From a virus, in the IMG/VR virus record IMGVR_UViG_3300025872_000099, positions 1 to 43,673 of that record: a stretch of 43,673 bases of DNA, one strand, 5' to 3'. The notes beneath the pieces are model-generated. The model saw only the letters and a list, made by a program, of their open reading frames with translations. It did not search any database and was not told the origin of the DNA. The position numbers and the translations under genes are program-made. Position 1 is the stretch's first letter, and every line of letters begins with the position of its first letter. This document shows, piece after piece, positions 8,390 through 22,561 of this stretch.

Positions 8390-9059
8390 TCCTTGTTTCA
8401 TCAAATCCGGTGAGATTGTCACAATAGACGACCCACGTTTAAGTGACACTGATTGCGTGATAGAGGCGGGCGTCATCATTCGTCCGCCCGCAGACGAGAC
8501 AACAGTCAAGGAAGTCGAGAAACATGTTGAGGAGAAGACAGAGGTCAAGGAGATAAAGCACACTGTCAAGAAGAGGGTGGAACTACCCTTAGAACCAGAG
8601 CCTCCTCCCGCTGTAGTTGAGACTCCTCCAGTCAAGACTGTTGTTACAAATCCGACAACAGTCTCTACAGCAGCAACAGCGGTTCCTGCCCCTGCTCCAA
8701 AGGAAGAAATTTACTTTGGGATGTCACCTGAAATGGCGACTGTTGCAGCAGTTGGCACAATCGCTGCAGTGGGTGGTGCGGTCGCAGCTTCAACGATGGG
8801 AGGTTTCAGTGCTGTTCAAGCAAAGCTCGCTTCGATCTTTGGTTCAAAAGCTGCTGCAACTGCTACAGCGGCGGTCGCAGTGACGGCGGGAACCATCGCC
8901 GCCGTGAAGGCCCTCGAGGGAAAGGTGGGCAAGTTCGAGGAGGACATGAAGAAGGCGAAGGAGGAGGTCGGTGGTGCAGCCTCTTCAATCGACCGGATCG
9001 ATGCCCTACTGAGCCGGCTTGGCGGCGACAACGACGACGAACTCGACCCTTCGGTTTAG
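8382..9059 (+). CDS. Hypothetical protein with Pro-rich linker and Ala-rich hydrophobic segments
   Basis: 225 residues from ATG 8382, which overlaps the stop of the preceding gene. The order is a short beta-type N domain (MADPCFIKSGEIVTIDD), a charged Lys/Glu/Val stretch, a Pro/Thr/Ala-rich linker (about 65-105) as seen in envelope-spanning proteins, two Ala-rich hydrophobic segments (about 114-135 and 147-170), and a short coiled coil. Its last 54 bases overlap the convergent TSP3/OmpA gene. Function unknown; it belongs to the same cassette as the two genes before it. Confidence 0.68.
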   Translation: MADPCFIKSGEIVTIDDPRLSDTDCVIEAGVIIRPPADETTVKEVEKHVEEKTEVKEIKHTVKKRVELPLEPEPPPAVVETPPVKTVVTNPTTVSTAATAVPAPAPKEEIYFGMSPEMATVAAVGTIAAVGGAVAASTMGGFSAVQAKLASIFGSKAAATATAAVAVTAGTIAAVKALEGKVGKFEEDMKKAKEEVGGAASSIDRIDALLSRLGGDNDDELDPSV

Positions 9060-12000
9060 GGCCTGCCCCTCGGGAGTCCCGGAGGTGTCGAGCGGTGCCG
9101 TGTCTCCCTTACCCTCGATGGAGATGCGCCCCGCATCGACACCCTTGCCGATGAGGTAGTCAGCAGCGACCTTCGCTCTTTCCCGTGAGAGTTCCTCAGG
9201 GTGCTTGAACTCCATTTCCGAGGAGTCCGCGTATCCGACGACCTTCACGCCGTATCCCGGTCGAAGATTAAGGACCGTCCAGACACCGTCGAGTGTCGCC
9301 CGGGCCTTAGTGTTGAGCTTCGTGTCGCCTGGAAGGAAACCGATTCCGACCTCCTGCTTCGGAGGTAAGGTGACATCAGGCTTCGCCGGGACTACTATCA
9401 CGATGGGCTGGAGCGGTTCTTCCTGAACCTTACACTCACATGCGGTCTGGGGCGAAACTTCGGGAGTAGCGTCTTCCTCTTCCTCATCTGAGGGACCGAA
9501 AGTAATCTGCATTGTTGCCTGCCAATCTCCATCGCCAGGTTGACGAATGACACCCTTGCTCAGTGCACCGCCAATCGAGAAGTTGCCGACAGTCCACTCC
9601 AGTGAAGACCCTATGAAGAGAGATGAGACAGGCGACTCTCCAAGGTTGTGAAACGCCTGCGAGTCTACTCCAATCGTGAAGTCGCCGACTGAATAAGATC
9701 CTGCCGCCGTGATGTAGGGCCCGGATCCAAGCTCGTATCCTTCGAGATCGACCTTCGGGTAGACCATGAAACCAGCCCCGAGGAGCCCCCCGACGTTACC
9801 GAACTGGGCCTCGGCTCCTGCTTCGAGTGTCGTTGCCCACCCAGGATGTGAGACACCGAGTCCTACTCCGGTGGGAGCAACCAACGACACATCGCCGTAG
9901 GCTCCCAGGCCATCGACACTGAAGGCTTTCGAGTTCACGCGGAGACCGCCCCAGACATCACCGAGGCGAACTACTCCATCGTTAGCGATGGATGCTGGCA
10001 CGCCGAAGTCGACAGAGAAGTGCTCGAAAGTGTAACGATTGGTCGTCCAGCCCCAGTAGACGTCATCGATGACCACGACCTCGTCACCCTGCGGGTTGAT
10101 GTAGGAGAGGGGATCGGTGACCACACCACCGACGATGGCAGTCTCATCTCCGAGGAACCTCGACTCACCCCTCGGTGGGAGGGGCACCACACTCATCTCG
10201 GGGACCTCACCCCCAGAAGCTCCCATCAGGAGCGGGAATCCGAGGAGGAAAGAGAAGAGGCCCCTCCGCCTTGAGGCGAGCACCGCGCCGAGGGTCATGA
10301 GAATGAGGCTTCCGCTTCCACCGCCGCCGGTCGTGGAGCAACCGCCGCCCGGGACATATGACCCCTTCGGAGCGGGATTCTCGTCCGTGTCATCGACCGG
10401 TGGGGCGCCAGTCTCGTCGGCACTATCAACGGCTGAATCGGAACCGGTATCGATCGAGGTATCGTGGCCACTGTCGCCCGTGTCGATCACCACACCGCTG
10501 TCACCAGAATCTCCTGTATCGATTGGCCTGTCATCGACAGGATCACATGCATCACCGACTCCGTCTCCATCAACGTCGGACTGGTCATTGGAGAGACCTG
10601 GACAGTTGTCGGTCACATCGTCAGCCCCGTCTCCGTCGGCGTCTGGATCGCAGATATCACCAAGACCGTCTCCGTCGATGTCTGCTTGGTCGGAGTTGAA
10701 GGCATCCGAGCAGTTGTCAGATAGACCGCAGAGCCCGTCCTCATCAGCGTCGTTTGTCGCATCATCCGGACAGGCATCGACATCACCACAGATTCCGTCG
10801 GCATCGATGTCGTTGTCAGCATCGAACTCGCATGGATCGGTGTCGGCACATGCTCCGTCACCATCGACATCGTCGCTTGGATCGAGCGGGCAGACGTCCA
10901 GTGATTCACAGGCTCCGTCGCCGTCCCGATCATCGAGGGAGTCATTGGGGCAGATGTCCTCGTCACCGCAGGTCCCGTCACCGTCGATGTCGTTCAGCTC
11001 ATCGAGCGGGCAGGTGTCACAGTCATCTGAGAGGCCGTCCTCGTCCGAATCTACCGTGTCATCAGCGCCCGGGCAGATATCTGCAGAATCGCAGGATCCG
11101 TCACCGTCGGAATCATCGGCTGAGTCCGCCGGGCAGGCATCGCAACCATTCGGGATGCCATCACTGTCAGTATCGAGTGTGTCATCAGCGCCCGGGCAGA
11201 TATCGTCGGAGTCGCATGAACCATCCGCATCACTGTCACCGAGTGCATCGAATGGGCAGGTGTCGCAACCGTCGGGGGTGTAGTCACCATCAGTGTCGAT
11301 GCGGTCATCTGAGCCGGGGCAGATGTCGTTCTCAGCACAGACGCCATCGGAATCGGAGTCATTGTCTGCGTCATACTTGCAGGCATCGCAACCATTCGGG
11401 ATGCCATCTGAGTCGGAATCCACCAGGTCACTGTAGCCCTCGCAGACATCCACATCTCCGCAGACTCCGTCACCGTCAGCGTCATCGTATGGGTCTGACG
11501 GGCAAGAGTCGCAGCCATCTGGCGTGTAATCAGCGTCCGCATCAGCGAGGTCATCGTATCCTTCGCAGGCATCAACATCACCGCAGACACCGTCGGCATC
11601 TGCGTCGTCATACGGATCGGATGGGCAGGAATCGGAGGAGTCTGGGATTCCGTCGCCGTCCGCATCCGGTTCAACAGGGGCTTCGGCGCAGTCCGTTGCA
11701 GCGGAGACCGCAGTCTCGTCAAGGGTGTAGATGACCCTGAATGTCTCGGACTGCCCAGGAGCCATATCACCGAGGCTCACCGCAAGCGAGATCGCCGCAT
11801 CATCGGAGACCGAAGATCCCACTGTGGAGTAGAATCCTGAGCCGTTCCAGATGTCCGAGGCATCGGTGTTGAAGAACCCACCATGGGTGACCCTTGCACG
11901 ACTGTCGGAGGCGATGAGGTAGAGATCCGCGCCATCTCCCCCGGTCGCCCTAACTGAGGCAAGATCGGTGGATGAGTCAGGTTGCGAGATGATGGTGTTC

Positions 12001-12587
12001 GTGGTCGAGTAGTCGTATGTCGTCATCACAGAGTTGTCAGGATCGACGTTCCTGAACCAGTAGACGTCCGACAGGGTCGATGAGCCGTTGTTGGTGAGGG
12101 TGACAGTCATCACGACGTAGACCTCGTCATTGACGACACCGTACTGGGTCTCTACCCCGAGGTCTCCCACCGCGCCGGTCCATGTCACCGCACCGCCGAG
12201 GTTTCCGCAGATATCGACCTCACATGCGGGGTCTCCGAGGGAGCCTGCGATGCCATTCGTCCAGCCGTTTGTGTTGTCGTATGCGACCCCGTTGAACTCA
12301 ACGCCCCAGCCCTCGAGAGGAGAGCCGGGTGAGAAGAAGTCACCGTAGTAGCTCGACCAGCCGTTCCGCTGCGGGTTCGCCACGAAACCGAGTTGGCCTG
12401 TGTTCGACCGGTAGTGCCATCCAGAAGGGTAACCGCCCTCTCCGAAAGCGCCCTCGGAGCCGATGCCGAACTCAACGTATTCGTTACGAATAAAAGCTGA
12501 TGAACCAGGATCATTGACTTCACAAAAACCTGATGCCTGGGCCAGCGTTGGCGTGAGGAACAAAAGTGATAGAAGTATTTTACGCAT
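9006..12587 (-). CDS. Giant secreted outer-membrane protein: TSP3 repeats, MYXO-CTERM-like segment, beta-barrel, OmpA domain
   Basis: 1193 residues from ATG 12587, beginning with a signal peptide (MRKILLSLLFLTPTLAQASG). An N-terminal beta-rich ectodomain (about 20-300) is followed by roughly 18 calcium-binding-type DxDxDG thrombospondin type-3 repeats with paired Cys (about 305-685), an Asp/Thr/Ser/Gly linker, then GGGCSTTGGGG plus a hydrophobic stretch and RRR (about 745-775) matching the MYXO-CTERM pattern. After that come a predicted barrel ending in MQITF, an acidic linker, and an OmpA-type peptidoglycan-binding domain (about 1079-1192; LSRERAKVAADYLIGKGVD, then NRRVEF). This is normally bacterial surface architecture. 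The 3' end overlaps a convergent gene by 54 bases. The in-frame fusion is discussed in the findings. Confidence 0.85.
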   Translation of the reverse strand: MRKILLSLLFLTPTLAQASGFCEVNDPGSSAFIRNEYVEFGIGSEGAFGEGGYPSGWHYRSNTGQLGFVANPQRNGWSSYYGDFFSPGSPLEGWGVEFNGVAYDNTNGWTNGIAGSLGDPACEVDICGNLGGAVTWTGAVGDLGVETQYGVVNDEVYVVMTVTLTNNGSSTLSDVYWFRNVDPDNSVMTTYDYSTTNTIISQPDSSTDLASVRATGGDGADLYLIASDSRARVTHGGFFNTDASDIWNGSGFYSTVGSSVSDDAAISLAVSLGDMAPGQSETFRVIYTLDETAVSAATDCAEAPVEPDADGDGIPDSSDSCPSDPYDDADADGVCGDVDACEGYDDLADADADYTPDGCDSCPSDPYDDADGDGVCGDVDVCEGYSDLVDSDSDGIPNGCDACKYDADNDSDSDGVCAENDICPGSDDRIDTDGDYTPDGCDTCPFDALGDSDADGSCDSDDICPGADDTLDTDSDGIPNGCDACPADSADDSDGDGSCDSADICPGADDTVDSDEDGLSDDCDTCPLDELNDIDGDGTCGDEDICPNDSLDDRDGDGACESLDVCPLDPSDDVDGDGACADTDPCEFDADNDIDADGICGDVDACPDDATNDADEDGLCGLSDNCSDAFNSDQADIDGDGLGDICDPDADGDGADDVTDNCPGLSNDQSDVDGDGVGDACDPVDDRPIDTGDSGDSGVVIDTGDSGHDTSIDTGSDSAVDSADETGAPPVDDTDENPAPKGSYVPGGGCSTTGGGGSGSLILMTLGAVLASRRRGLFSFLLGFPLLMGASGGEVPEMSVVPLPPRGESRFLGDETAIVGGVVTDPLSYINPQGDEVVVIDDVYWGWTTNRYTFEHFSVDFGVPASIANDGVVRLGDVWGGLRVNSKAFSVDGLGAYGDVSLVAPTGVGLGVSHPGWATTLEAGAEAQFGNVGGLLGAGFMVYPKVDLEGYELGSGPYITAAGSYSVGDFTIGVDSQAFHNLGESPVSSLFIGSSLEWTVGNFSIGGALSKGVIRQPGDGDWQATMQITFGPSDEEEEDATPEVSPQTACECKVQEEPLQPIVIVVPAKPDVTLPPKQEVGIGFLPGDTKLNTKARATLDGVWTVLNLRPGYGVKVVGYADSSEMEFKHPEELSRERAKVAADYLIGKGVDAGRISIEGKGDTAPLDTSGTPEGQALNRRVEFVVVVAAKPAQ
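10262..10352 (-). other. MYXO-CTERM-like sorting segment inside the giant protein
   Basis: Encodes Gly-Gly-Gly-Cys, a Gly/Ser spacer, a hydrophobic helix (LILMTLGAVLA) and SRRRG. This is the tripartite pattern of Myxococcota C-terminal sorting signals (Cys, helix, Arg cluster), but it is followed in frame by another 420 residues. MTLGAVLASRRRGLFSFLLG could also act as the signal peptide of the downstream barrel/OmpA part. Confidence 0.55.
10530..11670 (-). repeat. Tandem thrombospondin type-3 coding repeats
   Basis: About 18 imperfect units, mostly 60-80 bases, encoding D-x-D-x-D-G-x-C and C-P/C-D pairs. On the plus strand they show as recurrent CCGTCACCGTC and CATCG runs. Protein repeats of this type bind calcium and stiffen surface proteins. 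Confidence 0.8.
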
Positions 12588-12633
12588 ACCTCTATCTATG
12601 TTATTCGCGCGTAGAGACTGACGAAAATTCAGA

Positions 12634-12924
12634 TTAAGAGCTGACGGCCTCGACAAAGCGAGAGTCTACCAGAAGACGACCTGCCTCTGACATGCACCAG
12701 TAGTACACTCGATTCTCTATCTTGTTCTCAGTGAGGGTCACCGCGGGCGACTCGACTCTCTCTACGACGAGAGCATTGATGTTTGCGACAATCTTCTTCT
12801 TACCCTTCAACTTGAGAGTTCCCTCCCTGGTGTTCTCTACGCTTGACCAGCCGTAGGGAGGTTCAATGCCTTCACAGTCCCAGGGCACGATGCGCACAAT
12901 GTCACCATTCTCAAACTTACTCAC
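12634..12924 (-). CDS. Small SH3/KOW-like protein
   Basis: 96 residues from GTG 12924, which overlaps the upstream stop (GTGA) and follows GGAGG. It begins KFENGDIVRIVPWD, the G-D-[IL]-V opening seen in many small proteins of this window, followed by a predicted small beta-barrel (GTLKLKGKKKIVANINALVVERV). This resembles SH3-like or KOW-like folds used for protein or nucleic-acid contacts. Fold assignment is by pattern only. Confidence 0.7.
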   Translation of the reverse strand: MSKFENGDIVRIVPWDCEGIEPPYGWSSVENTREGTLKLKGKKKIVANINALVVERVESPAVTLTENKIENRVYYWCMSEAGRLLVDSRFVEAVSS

Positions 12925-15331: not shown

Positions 15332-15611
15332 CTACTGCGATCTCCCTGCCGTCCTGGAAGACGATCCAGCACTTCGATATCCATTTCTCAGTGTACTTCA
15401 TCGAATCAGACTTTACAAGCAGGAGCACGTGCGAGCCGACCTCGATCTCGATTCTCTCCCACACGGGAGATCCGAGAAAGGGCGGATCCTGCTGCCAGAT
15501 GTGGGCGACCACGTGAGTACCAGGAAGGGCGCGACCATCGTAGAGGTGATCACGACACACGACCACGGCGAGATCGCCCGGCCGCAGCTCACCACTCTTC
15601 GCCGAGTCCAA
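15273..15611 (-). CDS. Small SH3-like protein (start uncertain)
   Basis: About 112 residues if TTG 15611 is used. It overlaps the end of the QueF-like gene and has no ideal start codon. It has the ELRPGDLAVVVCRDH opening, then IEIEVGSHVLLLVKSDS and KCWIVFQDGREIAVDEKNL, the same strand pattern and final hydrophobic strand as other small barrel-like proteins in this block. CTG or GTG starts nearer 15570-15590 are alternatives. Confidence 0.55.
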   Translation of the reverse strand: MDSAKSGELRPGDLAVVVCRDHLYDGRALPGTHVVAHIWQQDPPFLGSPVWERIEIEVGSHVLLLVKSDSMKYTEKWISKCWIVFQDGREIAVDEKNLDHVGSPRGSTASVE

Positions 15612-15996
15612 CCCAGTCCCTGTACTTTTCCTCACCACCGCGGGTCTTCCAGTCAGAGTCGATGGTAAGCTTTGAGCTGATGCCGCCGCGTGGGTTGAAG
15701 ACCATGACGATACGTAGGCGATTGGGCTCGTATACCGCCATGAGGTCATCGTAGATGACATTCGCGAGGCGCTCGTATGAGATGATCTTGTTCCTGAACT
15801 GGTGGAGGTAGAACTTGAAGGACTTGAGCTCCACGACTTTCTCGTGTGGATAGATCGTCACGAAGAGGTCGGCAAAGTCTGGCTGGTCCTTCACTCCGAT
15901 GAAGGTCACCTCGGGTGACTTGATCTTGATCTCGTAGTCCCGGTCAGTCGGATTGGGAATCGACTTCAGGATCGTCGGGTCGCTCCACACTTTCAT
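15589..15996 (-). CDS. QueF-like T-fold protein lacking the catalytic cysteine
   Basis: 135 residues from ATG 15996 (GGAG 5 bases upstream; ATG 16014 is a weaker alternative). It aligns by eye with the single-domain preQ0 reductase QueF: VVELKSFKFYLHQFRN (55-69) matches the NADPH-site motif ELKSxKxY, QPDFA (38-42) keeps the conserved Asp, a Glu at 75 matches the substrate Glu, and NPRGGIS (101-107) is the family C-terminal landmark. In known QueF the nucleophilic Cys lies just before QPDFA in xCPxTGQPDFA; here that segment is FIGVKDQPDFA, with no Cys, and the usual His is Tyr74. It therefore probably cannot form the thioimide and may instead bind or otherwise process a 7-deazaguanine. No other deazaguanine gene is in the window. 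Confidence 0.8.
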   Translation of the reverse strand: MKVWSDPTILKSIPNPTDRDYEIKIKSPEVTFIGVKDQPDFADLFVTIYPHEKVVELKSFKFYLHQFRNKIISYERLANVIYDDLMAVYEPNRLRIVMVFNPRGGISSKLTIDSDWKTRGGEEKYRDWVGLGEEW

Positions 15997-16006
15997 ACGT
16001 TCTCCA

Positions 16007-16261
16007 CTACTCATGACTTTCTGATTTCACGGAAGAGTGTATACTCGCCAAGATTCGCGCCTCCTCTTCATCGACGAAGTATGCCACGGGCGCCCTCACG
16101 ATGCTTCCGAAAGGGGCCAAGAAATCACCGAAAGACCTCTCCCAGGCGTCTTCAAATCCTCCCAGGTAGACCCATGTCTCACCCTCGACAATTCTCCAGT
16201 CACAGGTCTCATCTTCCCATGTTCGACGACTGACGAGGTCACCCTCTTTGAATCTATTCAT
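16007..16261 (-). CDS. Small SH3/KOW-like protein
   Basis: 84 residues from ATG 16261, overlapping the preceding stop. It opens NRFKEGDLVSRRTW, followed by VEGETWVYLGGF and a barrel-like middle. The C-terminal helix EEEARILASIHSSVKS may close the fold. Directly upstream of and overlapping the QueF-like gene. Confidence 0.65.
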   Translation of the reverse strand: MNRFKEGDLVSRRTWEDETCDWRIVEGETWVYLGGFEDAWERSFGDFLAPFGSIVRAPVAYFVDEEEARILASIHSSVKSESHE

Positions 16262-16685: not shown

Positions 16686-17483
16686 CTAGGGAGTAGCAGC
16701 GTAGTGTTCAACGAGATCGTTGATTCTCTCCAATGACTTGTTGAAGTAGTAGGTGTCCTTCTCGCTGCCGACGAAGCGCCTTTCATTCTTCAGAGCCGCA
16801 ATCGCGGTGGAGCCAGAACCAGAGAATGGGTCGAGGATCACGTCTCCAGGTTGGGTGTGAGCCAGGACCATCCTCTCCAGGAGAGCCACAGGCTTCTGGG
16901 TCGGGTGCCAGCCACAGTACTCTCGACTCGTGGTGTGGTTGTTCTGCTGCCAGACGTCTGTGGGCACCTTTCCGCGAGCGAAGTCCTCACCTGTGCGAAA
17001 GTTCTTCGTCACCTTTCGGGGCACCTCCACGTTCTCGGGGTACCATCGAACATCGGGACCCTTCGAGTACATGAGACAGTCCTCATGCTTACGGGGCCAT
17101 GTCTTCTTGGTGCGCCCGCCCCAGTCGTAGGACCAGATGAGCCAGTTACGGTACTCGAGCTTCGCTTGGTGGTTCATGACCCCAAGCTTGAAGCGCAGGA
17201 AAGTGTCGGTCTTGGTCGTCCCCCAAACATAGAGGGCACCGCCGGGCTTCAGGACGACCGAGCACTGTCGGACCCAGGCGTCGCACCACGAGAGGTACTC
17301 GGTCTCGTCCTTCCACTGGTGATCCCAGTCGTCCCCCACGATCTCGAAGTAGGGCGGGTCCGCGATGATCACGTCCACGCTCTCCTCGGGAAGGGAGGCG
17401 AGGAGCTCCATGCAGTCGACATTCCGGAGGTCCAGGTTTGGGGAAGGTTTAGGATTAGAATCTGGGTTATTCACGGGGATCAC
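16686..17483 (-). CDS. DNA methyltransferase, beta class (N6-adenine or N4-cytosine)
   Basis: 265 residues. The catalytic motif IV DPPY (about 43-46) precedes the AdoMet motif I FSGSGST (about 223-229), the permuted order that defines beta-class amino-methyltransferases. WHPTQKP (about 198-204) is the motif typically found ahead of motif I in this class. The likely start is GTG 17483; GTG 17474 is an alternative. No restriction endonuclease is adjacent, so protection of phage DNA from host restriction is likely. It is a different family from the MT-A70 enzyme at 5425. Confidence 0.9.
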   Translation of the reverse strand: MIPVNNPDSNPKPSPNLDLRNVDCMELLASLPEESVDVIIADPPYFEIVGDDWDHQWKDETEYLSWCDAWVRQCSVVLKPGGALYVWGTTKTDTFLRFKLGVMNHQAKLEYRNWLIWSYDWGGRTKKTWPRKHEDCLMYSKGPDVRWYPENVEVPRKVTKNFRTGEDFARGKVPTDVWQQNNHTTSREYCGWHPTQKPVALLERMVLAHTQPGDVILDPFSGSGSTAIAALKNERRFVGSEKDTYYFNKSLERINDLVEHYAATP

Positions 17484-18488: not shown

Positions 18489-19223
18489 CTAGACTCCGTA
18501 TCTCGATCTTTGCGCGTTGAAGTTCTGTGTGACTTCTGCGGTGGACAGTCCCCTGTCGTAGATTCTCACGACAGGTATCGCACCGTGTGTGAAGTTTGTG
18601 CTGACATTGTCGACATCATCCCAGCGTCGGGCTATTCTGATTGCGCCACCCGACTGCGGAGTCCCCGAATAGCTCAGCGTGTAGGTCGTTACGACATTGA
18701 CATAGAGAGTCACAGTGCTGCCATCGTAGGTGCCTGCGTAGTGAACCCAGTTTCCGAGAACGGGTGTGTGCCCAGTTGCCACGTTCCTCCACGCACCATC
18801 GAAGAATCCGGCACGTACTGTCGATGACAGAGGTGCAGCAGCTCCCAACGCAAAGTTCACTTTGCTGACGCCATCGTATAGATTCGTGATGACTGCGTTG
18901 GTGCCTGCTGCAGGATTTCCGTCCCAGCGCATCCAAGCCTCTATCGTGAAAGTGTTGAGATCACCCAAGTTCGTTGCTGTATCGGCGTACTGATAGCTGC
19001 CAGAGTTGAATGTGAGGATGCCGCCATTAGCGCTTGAGTATGTCGGAGAATTTCTGAGTGTGAAGTTGACCCCCTGACCCGAGATGTCAGTCCAAGTCGT
19101 TCCCGTCCCTGGGTAGCTTCTTGAGTCTCCCGCATCAAGGTGAACGCGAAGCCCTCTTGTGACAACATACCTCGCCGGTGTGCTTGATATTGGGCCTGAG
19201 AACGATGACATCTTTCCAAACAT
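18489..19223 (-). CDS. Tail-tip adhesin with LamG/concanavalin-A-like domain
   Basis: 244 residues from ATG 19223, 1 base after the preceding stop. The N terminus MFGKMSSFSGPISSTP is nearly identical to that of the gene before it. A LamG-type jelly roll follows from about residue 20: LRVHLDAGDSRSYPG, FTIEAWMRWDG, NWVHYAGTYDGSTVTLYVN and IRIYDRGLSTAEV are typical strands. Such domains bind glycans or host surface proteins. It sits below the 929-residue fibre gene, so a host-binding role at the tail tip is likely. Confidence 0.8.
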   Translation of the reverse strand: MFGKMSSFSGPISSTPARYVVTRGLRVHLDAGDSRSYPGTGTTWTDISGQGVNFTLRNSPTYSSANGGILTFNSGSYQYADTATNLGDLNTFTIEAWMRWDGNPAAGTNAVITNLYDGVSKVNFALGAAAPLSSTVRAGFFDGAWRNVATGHTPVLGNWVHYAGTYDGSTVTLYVNVVTTYTLSYSGTPQSGGAIRIARRWDDVDNVSTNFTHGAIPVVRIYDRGLSTAEVTQNFNAQRSRYGV

Positions 19224-19224
19224 G

Positions 19225-19767
19225 TCACACCGTGAAGTAAAAGAGCTGTGTGAAAGTCTGGCGGCTTGTGGTTATTGAGGCATCGGTTGATTGTGTGTGC
19301 AGCGTGGTCCAGTTTGTGCTGTCATCGCTACCCTCGAAAGTCCACTGGACGGGATCTCTGCCGTCCACGTCGTTTGCTGTGGCGTACCTGAGGGAGTCTG
19401 CAATTTTCTTCGTGCTAGCTCCAAAATCGATCACAAGCTTCCACGACTTGGTCGCACCGGTGGATCCCCCATTGCCGCTCTGGTCTAGCCACTTGGTAGC
19501 GATCAGGCCGTCATTAGCCTTGGTGGGTTCTTCGCCGACCGGATTGTACCCACCTGGATTCGTGCACGTTGCTCCTGTGATTCCAATCGAAGTTCCAGCA
19601 TAGAACAGCTCGACCTCAGATACCTGAACCATTCCGATCGGCCAAGTGGGCAGATCCTGCGTGTAATCTCGAACCTTTGTGACAGAAAATCGATAGTAAC
19701 GGTAGGCTACTCTCGATTTTGGGTTCGGCGAAATCGGACCCGAGAAAGAAGACATTTTACCAAGCAT
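19225..19767 (-). CDS. Tail-tip adhesin with F5/8 type C (discoidin-like) domain
   Basis: 180 residues from ATG 19767, 4 bases after the fibre gene. It begins MLGKMSSFSGPISPNP, then a domain with VSEVELFYAGTSIG, NDGLIATKWLDQSG, SWKLVIDFG, and DPVQWTFEGSDDSTNWTTL, a good match to galactose-binding-like F5/8 type C modules. It probably recognises a host surface glycan or protein. Shares its N-terminal peptide with the next two genes. Confidence 0.8.
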   Translation of the reverse strand: MLGKMSSFSGPISPNPKSRVAYRYYRFSVTKVRDYTQDLPTWPIGMVQVSEVELFYAGTSIGITGATCTNPGGYNPVGEEPTKANDGLIATKWLDQSGNGGSTGATKSWKLVIDFGASTKKIADSLRYATANDVDGRDPVQWTFEGSDDSTNWTTLHTQSTDASITTSRQTFTQLFYFTV

Positions 19768-19771
19768 CTGA

Positions 19772-22561
19772 TCATCCGTATGTCGTCATCTGCCCAAGAA
19801 CTTTCCAGGCAGATCCCGACCTGATGAGGCTGAATCCAAACGCGTCCTGTTTGTTCGCAGTGCCCGTCGGAACGACGTTGTTCGCCCAATTTATCGTCTG
19901 CGCAGCTCCGTCGATCTGCACGGCATTTACGACTCTGGGCGTCGCAGATTGTGAGAGGATCACTGTGGGAGTGATTACTCTCAGGTTGGTAGTCGGCGCG
20001 TTGGTGAAATTCGCAGTTACGTTACCGGCTGGGTTGTTGACATAGAAGACCGACTGCGCCAGCAGATCGAACCCGGTTACTCCTGTGCTGCCGACAGAGT
20101 TGGAAAGTCTCTCGACCACCCCGCCGAAGGAGGTTCTACCATTGACCACAAGATCTCCAACTAGAGTGCCTGTTGAGGTGGGTGACCCCAAGAAGACATT
20201 CGTCACTGCACCGCCAATGTTGAGGGTCCCGGTCAGCACAGTATTGAGGAGGTTGAACGTCGTCGTTGTCGTCGTGGTGAGTACAGATCCCGTGATCGTT
20301 ACGTCTCCCTGGATGTCGACGTTTCCTGTCTCAGTGACCCTGAACTGGTTCACGTTGTTGAAGTCCCTGACGGCGAAGAAGTGTCCCGCCCCGTTGTTAT
20401 TCGCGTCGAGCTTGATCGTTGCGTTACCGCTCGACACGAGTTGGATGTCGGTGGCGTCGGTGTTTACAGCGACTATTCCCGTGCTGAGGAAGAGGTCATT
20501 GCTGATGGTCGTGCTTCCAAGGAACGTCGGGCCAGCAGATGCGGAACCGATGAGGATGGTTCCATCGTTTCTCACCTCGAACAGATCTCTGAAGCTCGAG
20601 GCGTTGGTGGTCACGTTCCTCACCCTAAACATACCAGCGCCTGTCGTGCCGCTTGTCTGGAGCTCAATTCTGCTGTTGACAGCTTGCTGCTGCATCAGGA
20701 ACTGACCAGCAGTATTCGTTACTGCGCCGTTACCGTTGTGTAACATTGTAAGCTGCTGCGCAGTGCCAAAGCGGATCTTTCCTGCCGTTCCAATGTCGAT
20801 GTCCCTTCCGAAAGCTGTAACTGCTCCAACACCGGTAGCACCTATGTTTAGGGTAGTTGGTGAGCTTAGCAAATTGAAAGTCGTTGCAGTCGTTGTGATG
20901 TCGCCTCCTACGACTGCAAGGTCACCAGTTAGACTCAAATTTGAGCCAGTGATGTTTCCACCAATCTGTAGGTCGCTGGATCCACTGATGACACCACCCG
21001 TGGAGACGCTAGCGACCACGGCACCTGCGCCGCTCTTGACCTGGAAAGTTCCCGATGAGACAAGCGAGCCAGCAGAAGATCCTGTGACCACAAGATTTGC
21101 AACTAGAGCAGTTCCTGTCCCTTTCACAAACCTGAAGTCGCTGGTTCCGTTGAAGACTGCCGCATCATTAAACTGGACGTAAGTGTCAGAGCCGCCAGGT
21201 GTTCCTGTTGCACCGGCACCAGAAGATGCCACAGCGCGGAATGAACCAGCCTGCACGATCCTGTATGTAGTTGGATCTGTAAAGTCTAGGCCTGTACCCT
21301 TGACGATGACGTAGCCTAAGAATATCGCTGCATCTCGGGTGTTTTTGCCCTCAGTGAAGACTTCGGTGGCGATGCCTGCCTGGGCATCAGACAGAGTGGA
21401 GTAGATCGTGCTACCGTAGTAGACGTAGAATGCGCGATTAACAGAGTTCGGAAACCAGTAGACGCGCTGGATCGTGTACTTGTTTCCGGTGCCAACCGTC
21501 GTCAGGGTGCCGGCATTGTTGTATTGGGCAAAGTCGAGGACAGAATATCCGACATTTCCGTTGTTGAGGATGACGTCATCGCCTGACGCATTGACGTACT
21601 CATAGAATATCTTCGAGGTGGTCTGTGCTGTGTCTGTTGTGGAGGAGACGTAGTTCGGGCTATCGGGGTCAACGCTGTAGTTTCGACCCTCAGCGTAGGA
21701 ATCACCTGCATCCTTCTGAAGTCCCTGTGTTCCGTTCGCAGAAAGCGTGTGACCGCTGAGCTTGATGGGACCGAAAGCACGGACGAAGTCTCCTCGGAAC
21801 TGGTTGAGACCGTACGAGACCAAGGGCTGGTTCACAGCTCCGTTCGTTCCCACCTTGTCGGTGTGGAGGATCCTACCCAGGACGATGTAGTCGTTGTAGT
21901 CGCCGTTAGTGAACGGGATCGACTTCAGGAAGGGAGTTCCTGTGCTGTCCATCGCGATGTAGGTGATCTGCGTCGTGGAGAGGGAAGGAAGGGCTTGACC
22001 GGTGAGAGCGGGCCACGAGACTCGGGTTATCGTAGGATAGGGTTCATTGGCATCAGCCGTGGAGCTACCGTGAGCGTTGTAGGTGACTATGAGTCCGGAA
22101 CCCGAGTTGATGTTGTAGGTGGTCGACCCAGAGGTCGAGGAGAGCGTACCACCCGCCAGGAGGCCCGTGCTGAGACCTGATTCCAACCAGCGGAGGCGGG
22201 TCGTGTTGGTATAACCCGTGCCCGGCTGGTATTGGGTGAAGTAGAGGTCGTTGGTGGAGCCGGACGTGTAGATGTAGCTCGCGGTGGTGTTGGTTGGGAT
22301 CAGGAGGGTGCCGACCGGCTTCATCTGGATGTAGGAGTCCGTGCCGAAAGCGCCGGAGACGAAGGTATCGCCGCCGAAGACAGCTACGGGTGTGTCTGCC
22401 CCAGTCAATGTCTTTGCACCAGAGACAAAGAGTTTTACTCCTGATCCGATAGAAGACAGAGTCGGAAATCTTGAGCTCGGCTCATCTGCGATGATGAGAG
22501 ATCCCGATATTGCTGTAGTGGAAGTTCCGTTGCTACCTGATACTGTGCCTACGAGAGCCAT
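19772..22561 (-). CDS. Large tail-fibre protein
   Basis: 929 residues from ATG 22561 (GAGGTAAG upstream). Long, Gly/Thr/Ser/Asn-rich and beta-helical in character, with repeated short modules such as GDLAVVGGDITTTATTFNL that also occur in the other fibre (32321-34174). A conserved knob-like end contains WANNVVPTGTANKQDAFGFSLIRSGSAWKV. No chaperone gene follows; instead three small adhesins lie directly downstream. A hairpin lies ahead of its leader. Confidence 0.85.
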   Translation of the reverse strand: MALVGTVSGSNGTSTTAISGSLIIADEPSSRFPTLSSIGSGVKLFVSGAKTLTGADTPVAVFGGDTFVSGAFGTDSYIQMKPVGTLLIPTNTTASYIYTSGSTNDLYFTQYQPGTGYTNTTRLRWLESGLSTGLLAGGTLSSTSGSTTYNINSGSGLIVTYNAHGSSTADANEPYPTITRVSWPALTGQALPSLSTTQITYIAMDSTGTPFLKSIPFTNGDYNDYIVLGRILHTDKVGTNGAVNQPLVSYGLNQFRGDFVRAFGPIKLSGHTLSANGTQGLQKDAGDSYAEGRNYSVDPDSPNYVSSTTDTAQTTSKIFYEYVNASGDDVILNNGNVGYSVLDFAQYNNAGTLTTVGTGNKYTIQRVYWFPNSVNRAFYVYYGSTIYSTLSDAQAGIATEVFTEGKNTRDAAIFLGYVIVKGTGLDFTDPTTYRIVQAGSFRAVASSGAGATGTPGGSDTYVQFNDAAVFNGTSDFRFVKGTGTALVANLVVTGSSAGSLVSSGTFQVKSGAGAVVASVSTGGVISGSSDLQIGGNITGSNLSLTGDLAVVGGDITTTATTFNLLSSPTTLNIGATGVGAVTAFGRDIDIGTAGKIRFGTAQQLTMLHNGNGAVTNTAGQFLMQQQAVNSRIELQTSGTTGAGMFRVRNVTTNASSFRDLFEVRNDGTILIGSASAGPTFLGSTTISNDLFLSTGIVAVNTDATDIQLVSSGNATIKLDANNNGAGHFFAVRDFNNVNQFRVTETGNVDIQGDVTITGSVLTTTTTTTFNLLNTVLTGTLNIGGAVTNVFLGSPTSTGTLVGDLVVNGRTSFGGVVERLSNSVGSTGVTGFDLLAQSVFYVNNPAGNVTANFTNAPTTNLRVITPTVILSQSATPRVVNAVQIDGAAQTINWANNVVPTGTANKQDAFGFSLIRSGSAWKVLGQMTTYG

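Follow-up and report, generated by a model that had tools for sequence, protein, structure and literature searches.

A glycine-for-cysteine clade of the QueF family, proposed as T-fold methylenetetrahydrofolate reductases, in phages and in bacterial methionine gene neighborhoods

Unimodular QueF (QueF-II, preQ1 synthase), represented structurally by the B. subtilis enzyme (PDB 4F8B/4FGC), uses NADPH as the hydride donor to a C=N carbon that is first made by attack of a cysteine, giving a thioimide. The T-fold core of this enzyme recurs in QueF-like archaeosine synthase (5JYX/5K0P), which also forms a covalent thioimide on a cysteine at the same position, and, at the level of the fold, in GTP cyclohydrolase I (FolE) with its guanine/pterin pocket. 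Methylenetetrahydrofolate reductases (MTHFR, EC 1.5.1.20) are TIM barrels, FAD-dependent in the case of MetF (PF02219) and flavin-free in the case of mycobacterial Mfr, which has no fold relation to the T-fold. In known MTHFRs an acidic residue protonates N10 of methylene-THF to give a 5-iminium that accepts the hydride, the source of which is FAD in MetF and NADH, acting directly, in Mfr (PMC11094777). Here we describe a clade of QueF homologs, found in phages and bacteria, in which the catalytic cysteine is replaced by glycine. We propose, with a probability of roughly 0.65, that its members are flavin-free, NADPH-dependent T-fold 5,10-methylenetetrahydrofolate reductases carrying out the MetF/MTHFR reaction, with substrate, cofactor and chemistry that we infer from the evidence below. 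A literature search returned no relevant paper linking QueF with MTHFR or folate.

The window (the whole stretch of DNA analyzed, a virus record of 43,673 bases) probably represents part of a larger phage genome that has genes for topoisomerase II and DNA ligase. One of its ORFs had been described in the initial annotation as a QueF homolog without the catalytic cysteine, and both profile searches and alignment to B. subtilis QueF bear this out. The ORF is real, but its end had been placed at 15996, which is an internal methionine (residue 7), rather than at 16014. Over its corrected extent the protein scores 80.7 bits against Pfam QueF (cut-off 27.3) and 100.1 bits against the NCBIfam QueF-II model TIGR03139 (curated cut-off 86.9). 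Only QueF models match it, and it has no match to PF02219. The window gene is under strong purifying selection (dN/dS ~0.08 against 80%-identical relatives). An AF2 model (pLDDT 86) predicts a T-fold and not the TIM barrel of Mfr. Its best structural match is B. subtilis QueF (Z 17.1, 130 residues aligned, rmsd 3.8), followed by archaeal QueF-like (Z 14.6, ~15% identity to the window protein) and GTP cyclohydrolase I (Z ~14, ~14% identity), in a comparison made with VIA-align against the listed folds QueF, QueF-like, FolE and DHNA.

Compared with unimodular QueF, the window protein retains ~35% identity, the fold, the NADPH motif and the equivalents of Asp62 and Glu97, and departs from it at the nucleophile (Table 1). 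The window segment TFIGVKDQPDFA aligns opposite the B. subtilis QueF segment TSLCPKTGQPDFA, so that TSLC-PKTGQPDFA in B. subtilis faces TFIG-VKDQPDFA in the window, Cys55 becomes Gly40 and one residue is deleted (B. subtilis QueF is numbered as in the literature, one below the count in the PDB sequence). The alignment therefore places a glycine, and no cysteine, where the nucleophile of QueF stands, and the catalytic cysteine of QueF-like archaeosine synthase is likewise opposed by this glycine. The cysteine segment had been called shortened, which it is, but by a single residue and so to a lesser extent than implied. A second substitution pointed out earlier, of tyrosine for the usual histidine, is present (Tyr80) and gives no sign of lost function: true QueFs share it, 15 of the 18 Cys-containing unimodular QueFs compared having Tyr or Phe at this site.

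Table 1 Features of the window around the Cys-less gene (feature, position, strand, remark)
Junction downstream of the Cys-less gene	15353..15592	-	site of MetK and SahH in close relatives L002-L004, L014 and L015; both absent in the window
Cys-less QueF-clade protein, proposed T-fold methylenetetrahydrofolate reductase	15589..16014	-	141 aa, ATG start
Arg109 codon in NPRGGIS	15688..15690	-	invariant
Glu81 codon (QueF Glu97 equivalent), putative substrate-ring anchor of T-fold enzymes	15772..15774	-	invariant, within the clade-specific S-Y-E-R motif; presumed role
E62-LKSF-K67, QueF-type NADPH motif	15814..15831	-	kept in clade
Asp46 codon (QueF Asp62 equivalent), proposed general acid	15877..15879	-	invariant; presumed role
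Gly40 codon, site of the QueF nucleophile Cys	15895..15897	-	Gly in 159/159 clade members
DNA methylase (N6_N4_Mtase), SAM consumer	16686..17483	-	upstream in the same gene run, in the window and close relatives

Our scans yielded 80 viral and 80 bacterial loci carrying the Cys-less gene, from which 159 proteins were aligned. The one-residue deletion and the glycine at the cysteine site are common to all 159, viral and bacterial alike. Asp62, Glu97, Lys83 and Arg125 of QueF correspond to Asp46, Glu81, Lys67 and Arg109 and are kept across the same set, and the window protein carries the E(S/L)K(S/A)hK motif (E62-K67), which has an NADPH role in QueF. Features not seen in unimodular QueF are a Ser-Tyr-Glu-Arg motif, present in every aligned clade member, and C-terminal DSDW/RGG motifs. 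Because the cysteine is absent from the window protein and from the whole conserved clade, preQ0 reduction through a thioimide is not expected, and the initial annotation was right on this point. In a maximum-likelihood tree of 100 rows, a long branch with 98/99 support parts the clade from Cys-containing QueFs; on this sequence evidence, the Cys-less proteins form a separate conserved clade and not as a decayed gene. A plasmid search gave matches that were all <60% identical, the annotated ones being named queF.

The gene neighborhood of the clade is the methionine/SAM/folate cycle (MetH, split MetH, MetE, MetK, SahH, ThyX), whereas that of unimodular QueF is queuosine. In Cyclobacteriaceae and relatives, MetH is split into a homocysteine-methyltransferase part and a pterin/B12 part, and the Cys-less gene lies between the two. 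It adjoins full-length MetH in Kangiellaceae and others, stands beside a MetH-like protein in a Halanaerobiales MAG and precedes MetE in L138. Its flanking genes in Chitinophagaceae encode a Cys/Met PLP-dependent enzyme and homoserine dehydrogenase, and in deltaproteobacterial MAGs it follows directly after ThyX. Overall, a methionine/SAM/folate gene was found within two genes in 39 of 78 bacterial loci, about half being without one. The gene run is headed by a SAM-I riboswitch in all 15 of the Chitinophagaceae and Cyclobacteriales-type loci tested, as well as in L091 (Halanaerobiales MAG); none was detected in those gamma- and deltaproteobacterial loci that were scanned. The deltaproteobacterial MAGs also encode, upstream of ThyX and the Cys-less gene, a conserved 123-aa protein without a Pfam match (L104:6829-7200 and relatives).

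Among the viral loci, MetK, SahH, MetH, MetE or a PNP-family protein occurs within two genes in 24 of the 80 (MetK in 17, SahH in 9, MetE in 2 and MetH in 1), and most have no methionine gene within this distance. Gene orders vary, with gene-MetK-SahH in the L002 group and MetK-gene-PNP in the L062 group; in L002 itself MetK begins directly after the stop of the Cys-less gene and is followed by SahH. A 273-kb viral contig (L034:8968-15256) holds MetK, the Cys-less gene, a full-length B12-dependent MetH and SahH side by side, and in L072:9539-11674 and L074, both viral, a cobalamin-independent MetE lies directly 3' of the gene. The closest phage relatives of the window share its gene run and bring together DNA methylase, Cys-less gene, MetK and SahH, which would constitute a SAM-supply module. 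As for the window, two methyltransferases had been reported; one, the DNA methylase, is certain, and no second was seen among the ORFs scanned.

Several further features of these loci were recorded. In ~15 viral loci, the Cys-less gene is directly followed by a gene for a DUF2452 protein or has one nearby (L007:10378-10794 and relatives). L154 (contig NHDW01000006.1, titled Methylococcaceae TMED69) has MetK, Cys-less gene, MetH and SahH in a phage-like order, and in the tree its Cys-less gene is placed among the viral sequences. This contig may come from a large phage that was assigned to a bacterial bin. Elsewhere in the window, 9006-12656 (minus strand) encodes a protein of 1216 aa that matches the thrombospondin type 3 repeat and carries an OmpA domain at its C terminus, unusual in a phage; relatives in L014 and L015 are 63% identical. 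Tail-fibre-like proteins whose domains include Laminin_G_3 and F5/8 C-type occupy 18489-22561 (minus strand). Since the gene blocks on either side are adjacent in the close relatives L002-L004, this stretch gives the impression of a tail module that was inserted or moved.

The neighboring methionine genes depend on methyl-folate, and if the clade is an MTHFR it is therefore expected in genomes that have a methionine synthase and no MetF. We scored MetF by PF02219, so that "MetF-less" denotes a genome without a PF02219 match, a criterion that misses the mycobacterial-type Mfr (PMC7857596). Across 40 carrier genomes, 11 lack a PF02219 MTHFR and 29 have MetF. Since 10 of these 11 encode DHFR, the loss of MetF is not mere genome incompleteness; the assembly of G375, one of the MetF-less Kangiellaceae carriers, consists essentially of one contig of 4.38 Mb. 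The MetH of three MetF-less carriers keeps its pterin (folate)-binding domain. Members of the clade were present in 2 of 296 sampled Bacteroidota genomes, too few for an analysis of co-occurrence, and the test was therefore moved to Kangiellaceae. Among 40 Kangiellaceae genomes, MetH or MetE is present in 32, each of which also possesses MetF or the clade gene: 16 have MetF only, 7 have both and 9 have the clade gene only. The clade gene is thus present in 9/9 of the MetH-bearing, MetF-less Kangiellaceae, the niche in which an MTHFR is called for. Methionine synthase is missing from the remaining eight genomes; seven of them have neither MetF nor the clade gene, whereas G040 has the clade gene without MetF. 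By Fisher test, p is 4e-4 for MetF-less Kangiellaceae and 8e-4 for mutual exclusion, both values being made optimistic by shared ancestry.

In genomes with MetH and no MetF, the clade gene would stand in for MetF. The same operon evidence could, however, be read as another folate/methionine step, such as protecting or recycling methyl-THF or aiding the reductive reactivation of MetH. MetF coexists with the clade gene in the 29 carriers mentioned above, and in Marinoscillum it comes directly after MetH within the same gene run as the Cys-less gene, so that there is no strict replacement and another C1 step is possible. Such a step would nevertheless leave unexplained why all MetF-less, MetH-bearing Kangiellaceae have the clade gene, and the version involving MetH is weakened by the MetE neighbors in L072, L074 and L138, since MetE needs no B12 reactivation. 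We therefore regard this alternative as unlikely. Supply of 5-methyl-THF for methionine and SAM synthesis is most likely what the Cys-less protein provides.

Reduction of another pterin was also considered. A dihydrofolate (or dihydropterin) reductase would likewise carry out NADPH-dependent C=N reduction on a pterin and would be useful beside a thymidylate synthase. The T-fold with its pterin-type pocket fits this idea, as do the ThyX neighbors in deltaproteobacterial MAGs, three of which have no DHFR. As a replacement for DHFR, however, the clade mostly fails, given that 35 of the 40 carriers already have a FolA-type DHFR, MetF-less Kangiellaceae and Cyclobacteriaceae included, and the SAM riboswitch and the MetK, SahH and MetE neighbors point to methionine. 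These observations leave the DHFR reading improbable.

The initial annotation had instead suggested a role in deazaguanine modification of phage DNA, to which an activity such as that of DpdL, a carboxy-deazaguanine decarboxylase, may be added. QueF homology and the retained ring-anchoring Glu are in keeping with action on a 7-deazaguanine, and phages use this pathway for DNA modification (PMC6884629). Queries with QueC, QueD, QueE, FolE and DpdA of phages Dp-1, phiSM and Mufasa8, the genes by which the suggestion was to be checked, nonetheless found no match in the window or in the 80 viral loci, although the same QueC, QueD and QueE queries did detect neighbors of canonical QueF. Likewise, Pfam TGT, QueC and FolE had no match in ten whole viral records carrying the Cys-less gene, up to 205 kb. 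The window and most of the records are fragments, and the absence of the DpdA plus QueC/D/E/FolE set accordingly holds for the fragments that were searched. The clade is moreover common on bacterial chromosomes, where it sits in methionine operons, and a search of 50,697 INPHARED phage records found no clade member, the best matches being <60% identical and the annotated ones QueF or its relatives. With methionine/SAM/folate genes as neighbors in place of deazaguanine genes, we consider this suggestion very improbable. Least credible of all is that the clade still reduces preQ0 by a Cys-independent mechanism, as the curated annotation would have it, for while the score exceeds the curated QueF-II cut-off and the gene is the only one of the QueF family in several Chitinophagaceae genomes, a separate bimodular QueF exists in Marinilabiliaceae and several Kangiellaceae carriers, the gene has no queC/D/E neighbors, unlike canonical QueF loci, and the nucleophile site shows an invariant Gly and a deletion.

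For a methylenetetrahydrofolate reductase, the retained and altered residues suggest the following course of reaction. Glu81 would grip the pterin ring at the site where QueF holds preQ0, and Asp46 would protonate N10, upon which methylene-THF would open to the 5-iminium. Gly40 may give the C1 unit room at the former site of Cys attack. NADPH, presumably bound through the kept ELKSxK and R109 elements, could then pass its hydride directly to the iminium. An iminium would need no covalent step, consistent with a site in which the ring-binding Glu, the Asp and the NADPH motif are retained and glycine takes the place of cysteine. The proposed reaction is that of MetF, and it resembles that of mycobacterial Mfr in that a nicotinamide would give its hydride directly, without a flavin.

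Should its members prove to be MTHFRs, the clade would complete the methionine pathway where MetF is apparently lacking, and the curated annotation of TIGR03139, an equivalog named "preQ(1) synthase", would be corrected for these proteins. One active site would then serve both a nitrile reductase that works covalently and an iminium reductase that does not, the difference lying in the nucleophile. In phages, the Cys-less protein may belong to a SAM-regeneration set with MetK, SahH, MetH or MetE and a PNP-family protein, which probably feeds DNA methylation and other uses of SAM; phages would thus carry methyl-folate and SAM-cycle genes beside their DNA methylases. On balance we favor the view that the clade, as a flavin-free T-fold MTHFR with glycine for the nucleophile, adds a fourth kind to the methylene-tetrahydropterin reductases, unrelated to the other three. 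It would be the sole route to 5-methyl-THF in some bacteria and part of a portable SAM-regeneration module in phages.
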